NCBI GenBank assembly: GCA_949130485.1
Contig: OX422201.1
Span: 6,302,127 to 6,366,126, forward strand
Reading direction: 5' to 3'
Length of the DNA: 64,000 nt
DNA from: Agelas oroides
Taxonomy: Eukaryota; Porifera; Demospongiae; Agelasida; Agelasidae
The notes below the pieces were generated by a model. The model searched no databases and was not told where the DNA came from. It saw only the letters and a list, made by a program, of their open reading frames with translations. Of the stretch, positions 13,401 through 19,400 are shown in pieces (the first letter of the stretch is position 1; every line of letters starts with the position of its first letter). The translations under genes were made by a program, and so were the position numbers.

Positions 13401-16400
13401 TGTGGCAAGCTTTTTTGGGCTTTCGCAAAATATTCTCATGAAAATTTCAACTACCATGTGCAGTGGTATGTATGTTTAGTTTGCACACTTGCTACCCAGG
13501 TGATTGTCATTCTGCCAACGAACCGCAAAGACCGTTATGATGCCATCAAGAAAGTTTGCTGTGTTGAAAACCCAGGTGAGATCTGTGTGCTTATCTCCAC
13601 TAGAAAATATCATTGTGAACCAAGTAAAATCCATGGCAGTCGGATAGATGTCCATTTCGATTGCTCTGCTGCATTCAAAGTACTGTATTGTCGAATCCCT
13701 GTTAAGAGGGGGGCCTTAATAATATCAGATACGTTCTACTCTCTGTGTTTTGTGCATGAGATAGCAGTCCCCATCTCCTGGTCGCCCCAGCACAGTTGAT
13801 GAAGTCTGACATTGTTCAAAATGTGTCCTACGCAGTGGATAACTTTGTATAACATCTAGCCTGCCTTTTTTTGCACGAAGTAGTTTATCTACACACGCTA
13901 CATGAGCCACACCCACAAACAGTAGATATGCCATGGGATGGTACAACATTCTTGTGAGGCAGCGGTATACATAACATGACATTGATATCCTTAGTGCCCT
14001 CCCAGTGCCTGCTGGCCCGCACACTCAGCAAGAAGCAGACCATGATGAGTGTGACAACCAAGGTTGCGCTGCAGCTCAACTGCAAACTGGGGGGAGAGCT
14101 GTGGGCACTGGAGATTCCTGTGAGTGAGGGGGGGTGGGGGGGGGGGGGGGGTGGAGGTGAGGGAGCGGTGCTTGTTTGGCCAGCATTCTGCCTGAAGCAC
14201 GGGTTAGTGTGCTTTCTGATTCACACTGGCCTAAAGTAATCCGCTTCATCAAAACCCAGTCTGAGCAGCCACTGTGCCTTGCTGGCTCCTGTCTGAAGCA
14301 ATATGCAAACAGGTTGCTATATTTCGTTCCTCTCTCTTTTCATTCACTGTGTAGTTGAAGAACAGCATGGTTGTGGGGATCGATACCTACCATGACTCAT
14401 CACAGCGTGGACGTTCTGTCGGAGGGTTCATTGCCAGTACCAACCCCACCATGACAAGGTAGGATCTGTGAGTGTGCCAGTACCAACCCCACCATGACAA
14501 GGTAGGATCTGTGAGTGTGCCAGTACCAACCCCACCATGACAAGGTAGGATCTGTGAGTGGGAGCAACAGGTCAAGCACTTGTGGTGTACAGTGTTTGGT
14601 GACCACACAATATCCTTTTTCCTCCCTCTTCCCTCTCTCCATCTCTCCTCTCCCTCCCTCCTCTCCCCTCCTCTCCCCTCCATCGCTCCCTTCTCTCCCC
14701 TCCTCTCCCCTCCTCTCCCCTCCTCTCCCCTCCTCTCCCCTCCTCTCCCCTCCTCTCCCCTCCTCTCCCCTCCTCTCCCCTCCTCTCCCCTCCTCTTCCC
14801 TCCTCTCCCCTCCTCTCCCCTCCCTTCTCCCTCCCTCCCTCCCTCCCTCCCTCCCTCCCTCCCCACAGGTACTACTGCCAAGTGATGTTCCAAACCACAG
14901 GACAAGAGCTTGCGGACAACCTGAAAATCCGGATGAGTGATGCTCTCCGCAAGTACCACGAGATCAACAAACAACTTCCTGATCGCATCATCATCTACCG
15001 TGATGGGGTCGGAGACGGACAGCTGCCTGCTGTTGTTGAACATGAGCTACCCCAAATCATTTCCAGCTTTGCAGTGCAAGGAGGCGGATACAAGTACGTT
15101 AGAACTGAGTGATGTTTGGTAGCAGCCACACCCCCTCCCAGTTTTTAACTGCTTGCAGTGTAGAAAAGCAGGGAGAGCCTTGAGCAAGCAAAATTCACAT
15201 GTACAACCAACTAAACGTTCAATGCTTGTATATGACAGTTGCCCCCCTGTGGGCTAGCTAGAGACATGGAGTAAGTTGCCATCTTTGCTCTTCTTACTGC
15301 TTGGACCCCCGGTGTGCCCATGCATGTCCTTTCTTCCTGGTCTTGACGCATCACTCATGTGAGAACGGATACTAGGCTCTCCCTGAGTTGTTTAGATGGT
15401 TGTGTGAGGGAGACCCTGGGGATACTAGGCTCTCCCCGAGTTGTTTAGATGTTTGTGTGAGGGAGACCCTGGGGATGAGGCTAGTGTACAGTGAGCTGTT
15501 GCGACGGATTGTAACTATCTAAGTTTCCCATTGGGGGGACGGAGATCAGAGTAAGGGCACACACTGTTCTACTCGTACCATGATATGTACTACCTCGGTT
15601 CCGTAAAATTTCTCACTCTTTGAACCTTTTCTCCCTCTATGATGGGGAAAAAGAGTGTAGGGGGTACACTCTTTTTCCCCATCTTATTACAATGGGAAAA
15701 AAGAGTGTGGGGTACATTTGCAAATTTCCACCGTACTGAAGGGGAAAAAGAGTGGGGGGGTACATTGTTTTTCCCCATCTGTAAGGTGGGGAAAAAGAGT
15801 GTGGGGGTACACTGTTTTTCCCCATCTGTAAGGTGGGGAGAAAGAGTGGGGGGGTACACTGTTTCCAAAGAAAATGAGAGCATTGACTTGTTTGAGCTTG
15901 TTTCCTTCACATAGTAACTTCCTTCTTTGATGATTATAGAACAGTGCAGAATAGAAAACAATAATTGTAAATACAAAAATGCAAGGTGAAACTAGTCCAA
16001 GTTAATAGAAAGTGTTTGTGATCGTGTACGTTGTGTCTTTTTGATAGTGTGCGGAAAGGGTGTAAACTGCTGCTTGAGTAGACATGCCTCCAGATGAGAA
16101 CGAAGCTTTGTCTGGTCCAGTATTATAGTTTCAGGCTTGTCACCGTAAGCAAGATGCACAGCCCAAGCAATTGCAAAACATCCACAGTCAGTCTTTCCAG
16201 ATTGCTTCTGTACCTGGGGCACTGCTATGTTTAGAACTCCTCCTTCACCAGCTGTCGTTCCATATAGTTCAATTACCTGCTTTTTGAGTCCAGGAGTTAA
16301 AGTGGCTTTCGCTTGCCCTAAGCTATCGTAAAGCAGTACTTGACCTTCCATGAAGCATGTCGTAACCCAGTGCTGATAGTCATCACCACAGTGAAGCACT

Positions 16401-19400
16401 TGGATGCTGGCGTTGCTGTTGCTGTGAGTGCCATCACAGGGATACCAGGGAGGTGGTCACGCACCCCACTTAGCATTTTGTACTTTGGTCTGGAATAATA
16501 AGAAAGTAGTAAGATGATGTTACACAGTTAGTAACAGTTGTATCCTTTCCTGGGGCGATGGTCTTACAATAATCAATGCCATTCCAATATGTAAAATGTT
16601 CCCCCTCCCCCGAACGATAAAACATGTGGCCAAGGCAACACAACTGTACAAGATAAACAACATTCTCATGACCTTTTTCATATGTGAAGTTTGTTGCTTA
16701 CGTACCGAAATGTCTTCCAGGCGCTGAGCAGATGGGCTTCATCAATCACAATTAGACCTATCTGCTGCTTCCATCGTAGTTGCCGAAACAGCTGCTTTGA
16801 AGTGCCATCCTCATCAAAGAAGCTCTCGGGAGTCACGAAAACTAGTTCGTATTCTCCAGATAGGATCTTGCCGTAGACCGACTTGTCTTTCTGTGCTGTG
16901 CCCAGGAATGTTGACTTGATGTTTCTGGCTTCTAGATTGCTGGTCTGGTCACTCATGAGGCTCACAGTTGGTGTAATGACAACTGTGGTCTTTTTAGACC
17001 ACACAGCTGGAAACTGAAAACACAGGCTTTTACCTGAGCCTGTAGGCTGTATGACGAGTGTGTCTTTTCCCGAGATAGCAGCTTCGATTGCCCGTTGCTG
17101 CCAGTCCTTGAAGGAAGTCAGCTGAAATCTATCTGCGAGCATTCCTTTCATTTGAAGCTGTGGTGTCACTGTAACGGAAAGAGATTCAATTAGTAGTAGG
17201 TGATTAGTTCACAGAAGTGCTTCCACTTTTGATACTTTATGTGACATTAGTAGCTGACCTATTAATGCTGAAACTAACCTTCACCACAGGTATTATGTGG
17301 TGTCCATTCTGGTGTAGGATTCTTCAGAGCTTGCAGTTGATGGTTCCTTCATGCAGGGTGCTGGTGCCTCATTTGGCTACATTGGCTGCAGTAGTGATTT
17401 GCACATTGCTGGCAAAGCACTGTAGCTGGCTGGGCACAGTTCTCACACAGCTCCATGGGATGTTGTGTGGAGTCCTCATGTCCATGTGTCTCTAACTCTA
17501 AACAAAGGGAATAATTGACTGTTACTACATGTACCACAACTAAACTATTTACTAACAGAGGAGAAAATGACATCAATTATTGAATTACCTTCATCCTCAG
17601 AAAAGAGGTAACTGCAGTCAGAGGAAAAACTCTCCATTTCAAAGCTGTTTTCTTCCCTTACCCTACAGTTGAACGGGCATCCTTGTCTCCTTCAATTCTT
17701 CTTGGACTTCTGTGGAACTTTGACTTCTCAACTGACTGGCCTACCCAACTGTGACACTTCCTTTAATACTGGCTTAATTTGACTCCTGTGGTGTTAACTG
17801 ATTAATAAAGTAACCCTTTGAGTAACACATTGGGTGATATTTAACAACCCTTAAGAAGTAGTGATTAACACCTTAGTGTAAAACAGTGTACCCCCCACTC
17901 TTTCTTCCCACCTTACAGATGGGGAAAAACAGTGTACCCCCACACTCTTTTTCCCCACCTTACAGATGGGGAAAAACAATGTACCCCCCCACTCTTTTTC
18001 CCCACCTTACAGATGGGGAAAAACAATGTACCCCCACACTCTTTTTCCCCACCTTACAGATGGGGAAAAACAATGTACCCCCCCCACTCTTTTTCCCCAC
18101 CTTACAGATGGAGAGAAAGAGTGAACTACACTCTTTTTCCCCTTCAGTACGGTGGAAATTTGAAAATGTACCCCACACTCTTTTTTCCCATTGTAATAAG
18201 ATGGGGAAACAGAGTGTACCCCCTACACTCTTTTTCCCCATCATAGAGGGAGAAAAAGTTCAAAGAGTGAAAGTTTATCCCTACCCACTACCTCTCTTTC
18301 ATCAGGCCCAAGCTTTCAGTGGTCGTGGTGAAGAAGAGGATCAACACTCGCATCTTTCACGACTTTCGGGGCCAGCTGAACAACCCTCCCCCCGGCACCG
18401 TGATCGACACACAGGTCACCAAGCCAGAGTGGTGAGTCCATTCTCTCTCACTGCAGCTACACGGTTACAATGCTTGATTAGAGGACTCTCCTGGTACAGT
18501 TCTGACATTTTGGTGTTAGACATTTCGGGACTGGATATTGCATATGAGGTGGGCACACTTAAATCAACAATGTGCCCACCTCCCTCCTTGAGGAACCAGG
18601 TCTAAAACTTCACTACTCACAGAACCCTGTGAGTGAACTGGCTTACAGTTTATGCACATGGCCTCAGGATGACACACGACATTGACGGTTTTCTTGGATA
18701 CATGACACAATCCCGTACATCATCCAATTTGCATGTTTGGATTATGTGTCATTTCTTCTCTCTCTGCTGCTGCAGGTATGACTTCTTCCTAGTGAGCCAG
18801 TCTGTCCGGCAGGGCACTGTCACTCCCACTCACTTTAATGTCATCTGTGACACCTCGGGACTGAGGCCGGACCACATGCAGCGGCTGACCTACAAGCTAT
18901 GCCACCTCTACTATAACTGGCCAGTGAGTGCAACAAGTATTTATTATCTTGTGAGCGACATGATCTGTAGAGTGAATGCTACCAAGTTGTGGCTTTGGGT
19001 CTGCATTTCCAGTTGCAATAGTGCTTCACACAGTGCATCTCAAGCACTTGATTGGTTGTGTTTCATTGTAGTAAGCTTACAGACTTTCTGTGAATCTTAG
19101 TGGAGCTGCAGCTAGCTAATGTAGAGAAGCTGGACCCATCCCACATACCACGGTAAAATTTTTAAAAAGTACATGGAGGCCCCCCTCCCCCTTTTCATCC
19201 ACTCAGTCACACTCACTCTCACACACACACTAAACACTGGCTATTTTAGAAAGGTTCGCACGGGGATATTCATACTTTCTTGATCTTGCCGGGTCTAATT
19301 TTGGAGTGTAAGCACAAGTGAAAGTTTCTCTCTCTCCTAGGGTACAGTTCGTGTTCCAGCTCCCTGCCAGTATGCCCACAAACTGGCATTCCTTGTAGGC

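Follow-up and report, generated by a model that had tools for sequence, protein, structure and literature searches.

Limits, termini and gene remnants of the element

The stretch of DNA analysed here (the window) comprises 64,000 nucleotides from Agelas oroides (contig OX422201.1, positions 6,302,127 to 6,366,126 of the forward strand). It contains a 2,690-bp DNA transposon at window positions 15597–18286, which is bordered on both sides by a perfect 8-bp target-site duplication (TSD), ACTACCTC, at 15589–15596 on the left and 18287–18294 on the right. The outermost 17 bp of the A end (GGTTCCGTAAAATTTCT; 15597–15613, plus strand) are unlike those of the B end (GGGTAGGGATAAACTTT; 18270–18286, minus strand). 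Because the two outer ends differ, the interval 15613–18270 given by an earlier note on this DNA, which was right about the element itself, falls 16 bp short of the true limits on both sides. Inside the outer ends lie terminal inverted repeats (TIRs) of about 250 and 390 bp that consist of ∼47-bp subrepeats (A side, 15614–15864; B side, 17881–18269; both inner limits are approximate). Positions 15613–15754 and 18129–18270 pair in inverted orientation over 142 nt with 98% complementarity, and the termini also pair in offset registers, between tandem units. In a blastn control, the two ends yielded 366 bits against each other, compared to a maximum of 38 bits among 188 pairs placed at random with the same geometry (200 placements were drawn, of which 12 near the element were left out). 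The long inverted termini described earlier are therefore real, as are the tandem palindromic units of which they are built, although the period of these units is 47–48 bp, slightly longer than the 44 bases first assigned to them.

Between the TIRs, the minus strand carries the remains of a gene, with the limits of exons 1–4 set by eye and the domains of exons 2 and 3 identified by Pfam. Exon 1 (17589–17637) contains the predicted protein start. It is followed by exon 2 (17279–17497), which encodes a B-box zinc finger (PF22586, E 2.9e-6; 27.7 bits at a cut-off of 27), and by exon 3 (16706–17168), which encodes the Walker A and DEAH motifs of a RecQ helicase (DEAD model PF00270, E 9.2e-24). Only the start of exon 4, with helicase motif III (LTATATP), is preserved (16408–16489; limits drawn against the gene model of a larger copy, L009, described below). 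It abuts a last-exon remnant with a Ulp1/C48 protease-like domain and a stop (15992–16407; PF02902, E 0.013; 15.7 bits, under the cut-off of 20.7). All three minus-strand remnants reported in the earlier note were thus recovered, its zinc finger being the B-box. Relative to L009, the open frame of exon 2 stops earlier, and the helicase and protease readings meet at 16407/16408, where an internal deletion has removed 4,514 bp (L009 element positions 1,835–6,348) and its two sides share 2 bp.

A larger copy with a predicted fused gene

L009 is a 7,438-bp element with the TSD TTACCTGG. Its gene was modelled as 14 exons with GT-AG introns, predicting one reading of 1,480 amino acids in the order B-box, RecQ helicase, Cys/His zinc module, DDE transposase with a CxxH motif, and C-terminal Ulp1/C48 protease. 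The open stretches match the Pfam models for an ANCHR-like B-box (3.9e-8), DEAD (1.3e-21), Helicase_C (5.7e-17) and RecQ_Zn_bind (3.8e-7); Peptidase_C48 remains under the cut-off (E 0.043), and Pfam gives no match above cut-off for the stretches between RecQ and Ulp1. The Ulp1 reading contains His, Asp, Gln and Cys in this order (HWV, YDS, and Q ahead of SGKTDCG), which we take to be the order expected of C48 peptidases. L009 is thus the larger copy that had been anticipated: RecQ, Ulp1 and the transposase absent from the window copy all lie inside the shared termini.

Since helicase, transposase and Ulp1 share one gene model, the window copy probably arose by one internal deletion inside a fused gene. 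The switch from a helicase to a Ulp1 reading, previously taken as the fusion of two parent genes, does mark a deletion junction; two separate parent genes are disfavoured by the single model of L009 and by the single frame of a relative, L037. Its sequence marks the window element as non-autonomous, an internally deleted member of a DDE (CxxH) cut-and-paste family. Without a transposase of its own, it would have moved in trans or lost the transposase after insertion. We hold with high confidence the explanation as a whole, namely that the window element is a deleted copy of such a family and that the family's gene, which L009 appears to contain as one fused unit rather than as two, encodes a single polypeptide; the name of the superfamily carries additional doubt.

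Copies with the same termini across the genome

The 288-bp left end matches 183 places on at least 17 contigs of the 259-Mb A. oroides genome, which is not a copy number because, in many cases, repeat units within a single copy match in offset register. Ends and TSDs were examined in 23 sources (the window, L009–L028, L045 and L046). One A and one B end are present in 14 of them, and 13 of these 14 copies are flanked by a perfect TSD, of 8 bp in six cases and 9 bp in seven; in eight further sources, either one end alone or an A-A junction was seen. The TSD-bearing copies are spread over nine contigs and their duplications differ in sequence. The genome search with a terminus and the comparison of target duplications that had been suggested earlier thus reveal dispersed copies with 8–9-bp duplications.

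Compared to L009, L010 is devoid of element positions 3,633–5,026, a span from within the zinc exon to the first catalytic region, and contains an insert of 742 bp; L011 is both deleted and rearranged. Eight copies (L012–L014 and L016–L020) have the same termini and mutually related interiors (94–99% over at least 600 bp). The one interior that was scored, that of L012, contains a 243-residue open reading with a QRICH1 domain (PF25561, E 1.6e-16), and these interiors seem to resemble a capture of the Pack-MULE type.

Two related loci separated by 23 kb (L021:3926–3953 and L028:3753–3780) each contain 28 bp of the A end in inverted orientation, placed flush against the A end itself. This arrangement may reflect the opening of a hairpin or an insertion into the terminus; rightward of it (L051), no B end with up to 8 mismatches was found at a plausible position. 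The B ends are similar across subfamilies (L009, GGGTAGGGATA; L042, GGTTTAGGATAA; L047, GGGTTAGGATAG), with what we take to be a faint likeness to telomere repeats.

Relatives and selection

Independent evidence matters here because the splicing of L009 is predicted, and it is provided by L037 (protein P0001), whose uninterrupted frame of 1,511 amino acids, from stop to stop, holds B-box, RecQ and DDE. It aligns with residues 34–1280 of the L009 reading at 35% identity; ubiquitin, DEAD and Helicase_C score above the Pfam cut-off, B-box and RecQ_Zn just under it. A search of the A. oroides genome with one transposase exon yielded 34 matches, five of them with 90–100% identity over most of the exon. 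Among the 13 related loci that were fetched (L037–L044 and L046–L050), the DDE region is found, whole or in part, in all 13 (L043 is devoid of the catalytic-E exon, L044 of the first-D exon), the helicase in 12, the B-box in eight (on the opposite strand in L046) and a Ulp1 part in six. The six loci with long uninterrupted matches (L037–L040, L049 and L050) gave no Ulp1 match. This sister lineage has a ubiquitin-like N-terminal domain (L037) and a tudor-like C-terminal domain (P0020 model).

The ends of L042 and L047 resemble those of the window family in their GG start, unequal outer ends and repetitive TIRs, and they are flanked by 9-bp TSDs (TGTGAGCAC and AGGGAGTAC). Long inverted repeats are present in L042, L044 and L047. 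In a FastTree phylogeny of 42 of 48 sequences (six with ≤180 aligned letters were dropped), the ten Ulp1-bearing loci and L045 form one group with a support of 0.73, which L041 joins with a support of 1.000.

In database searches, residues 780–1330 of P0001 matched 17 proteins, of which 16 contain Helicase_C and 14 DEAD. A profile of the DDE domain matched 111 proteins at E ≤0.01; because the weakest of these has an E value of 5e-33, the family has a sharp boundary at this level of sensitivity, which is that of a tool requiring shared 5-residue words. Between lineages, the proportion of synonymous differences (pS) was 0.72–0.90 and that of nonsynonymous differences (pN) 0.25–0.47 in five comparisons (helicase, RQC-zinc-DDE, zinc exon, Ulp1 exon and DDE), which on sequence grounds is the mark of purifying selection. 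Such selection between lineages, together with decay of single copies, is what transposons are expected to display.

At least 141 Ulp1/C48-like matches occur in the A. oroides genome (140 of 437 candidates were scored). They exceed the few loci of this transposon family, so Ulp1 may also be present in other families of elements.

Placing the transposase

Between the second D and the E, the CxxH motif is conserved in the aligned transposases, with the His in 80 of 80 rows and the Cys in 79. Passages from the literature, including PMC10045372, list hAT, P, MuDR, Kolobok, Dada and IS256 as CxxH superfamilies and do not name Academ. Pfam matches to the 80 rows are weak and comprise Transposase_mut in 10 (best 2.1e-4) and MULE in five (best 0.01); no integrase (rve) model occurs among the 25 Pfam families listed out of 41. 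Against PDB sequences, the DDE profile returned 13 rows without a meaningful match (the best, M-Ras, at E 0.46). In a second look at the fold matches, the IS256, hAT and P transposases scored 11.2–9.9 compared to 8.2 for integrase cores. Taken together, fold, CxxH, TSD length and long repetitive TIRs most likely place the family with the MuDR/IS256-like transposons, with Academ compared by description only.

The family shares with MuDR and other Mutator-like elements (MULEs) a DDE domain with CxxH, a zinc module, capture of other sequence, long TIRs and TSDs that fall within the 8–11 bp of MULEs (PMC6446971). Ulp1 occurs in some MULEs, including those of plants, hydra and lancelet (PMC2836005, PMC13317346). 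The present family differs from them in joining RecQ, B-box, DDE and Ulp1 in one gene and in its weak match to the MULE models, and Table 1 of PMC6446971 lists no helicase for any MULE group. Rehavkus and Phantom, which appear in that table with TSDs of 9 bp or 8–10 bp, long TIRs and minisatellites, resemble the present family in these features; their fingers are of the PHD, FLYWCH or SWIM type, and the table lists neither RecQ nor Ulp1 for them. To our knowledge, the IS256 family (ISCth4) is prokaryotic and has no helicase, B-box or Ulp1.

Kolobok elements duplicate TTAA, whereas the TSDs found here are 8–9 bp long, varied in sequence and in none of 13 copies TTAA. KolobokH has a RecQ helicase and a CxxH-type DDE domain, yet in the fungal elements described in PMC9587614 RecQ lies downstream of the transposase, as opposed to upstream of DDE in L009 and L037. 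TSD and domain order thus rule out a Kolobok element.

Proposed working and rival explanations

According to the predicted gene, a full element would encode one polypeptide with a B-box, a RecQ helicase with an RQC domain, a Cys/His zinc module, a DDE transposase and a Ulp1-type protease. Given the TSDs and the catalytic residues, the DDE domain would cut at the GG ends and join them to targets staggered by 8–9 bp. The zinc module or the RQC part may bind the tandem ∼47-bp palindromic units of the TIRs, and opening or processing of the ends, or of the gapped product, may fall to the attached helicase. The Ulp1 domain could act on the transposase, or on repair proteins on site, by stripping off SUMO or a related modifier; Ulp1 and OTU have been discussed as possible helpers of transposition or repair (PMC2836005).

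Several observations weigh against this interpretation. The roles of helicase and protease are ones that we infer, and the L009 splice sites were picked by eye to join exons matching relatives. The Ulp1 matches (14.1 and 15.2 bits) are below the Pfam cut-off of 20.7, and the transposase match is weak (P0003, 10.5 bits compared to a cut-off of 21). A first structure model gave no Foldseek match at E 0.001. Retroviral integrases occupied the top Foldseek ranks (E 3.2e-4), and neither IS256 nor Hermes was among the best 50 rows; we did not adopt this ranking as a family assignment because the alignment TM was <0.4. No TSD was found for L026, which has an A and a B end, for L020, which has two A ends, or for L037, L038, L039 and L044 in the test that gave those of L042 and L047. 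The TSDs of L018 and L019 are weaker evidence because they are sited in low-complexity or tandem-repeat DNA. Finally, the closest copies have dN/dS values of 0.41–0.78 (four comparisons).

The rival that survives best is that the family belongs to AcademH, a helicase-bearing branch of Academ from animals and fungi, and not to a MuDR-like lineage. We consider this improbable but serious, because its transposase could be compared by description only; our other conclusions are compatible with it. AcademH elements are DDE transposons with a helicase and 9–10-bp TSDs (PMC10045372), RecQ is mentioned in Academ (PMC3627910), and the present family likewise encodes a helicase in a DDE transposon (L009, L037) and has 9-bp TSDs in seven of 13 copies. 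The 8-bp TSDs of the other six, the near-invariant CxxH, for which Academ goes unnamed, and the weak Pfam matches to Mutator models argue against it.

It is very unlikely that RecQ and Ulp1, rather than being working transposon parts, are pieces of host sequence that a MULE has captured, as in Pack-MULEs. The related interiors of eight copies, one with a QRICH1 domain, and the nearly neutral drift of the closest copies would agree with capture. However, the domain order is the same in deeply diverged lineages and also within one open frame, Helicase_C is present in 16 of 17 homologs and the helicase in 12 of 13 related loci, and pN is far under pS between lineages.

Marginally less likely still, judged by fold, motif, TSD length and Pfam families, is a Zisupton/KDZ or Ginger1 element with Ulp1. 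Ginger1 transposases bear a C-terminal Ulp1 or OTU domain (PMC2836005), and Foldseek puts integrase cores first; the second look at the folds, the CxxH motif, the TSD length and the listed Pfam families without rve speak against it. That the termini are a local satellite inversion with coincidental gene remnants, as their tandem palindromic units might suggest, or that they never bracket the genes, the two outcomes against which the earlier note had asked its reading to be checked, we regard as practically excluded for the former and did not find for the latter, since copies with differing TSDs are dispersed over nine contigs, left-end matches over at least 17, and the termini bracket helicase/protease genes in L009, L010 and the window.

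Relation to described elements

Ulp1 in plant and animal MULEs (PMC2836005, PMC13317346) and RecQ in KolobokH (PMC9587614) and Academ (PMC3627910) are already known. Among the literature matches listed, judged by titles, abstract openings and term counts, we found neither a RecQ fused to a MuDR-like transposase nor a paper combining RecQ, MULE, transposase and Ulp1. That the family is undescribed is unproven, AcademH being known to us through a citing passage in PMC10045372. We are evenly divided on the broader reading, in which the elements would represent an undescribed, widespread DDE lineage with a WRN-like RecQ and RQC fused to a MuDR/IS256-type transposase. Its lineages would have exchanged ubiquitin/SUMO modules, an N-terminal ubiquitin-like and a C-terminal tudor domain in the intron-poor one as opposed to a C-terminal Ulp1 in the intron-rich one, and one protein would serve strand transfer, end unwinding and modifier removal.

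The general view is that cut-and-paste transposons rely on host enzymes for repair. If the RecQ-transposase fusion holds over deep divergence, a helicase as part of the transposition reaction becomes testable. Transposon remnants would then account for the fragments of RecQ-like, B-box and Ulp1-like genes that such genomes contain.

The host gene

The element lies in an intron (15094–18305, plus strand; splice sites by eye) of a host gene whose joined exons match the Piwi domain (PF02171, E 4e-67). The 3′ splice site is located 19 bp beyond the element end, and the ACTACCTC duplication preserves part of the pyrimidine tract of the intron adjoining the element. The same gene contains a 43-bp tandem repeat in three exact copies (14432–14560), which seemingly extends over an exon end and splice donor.

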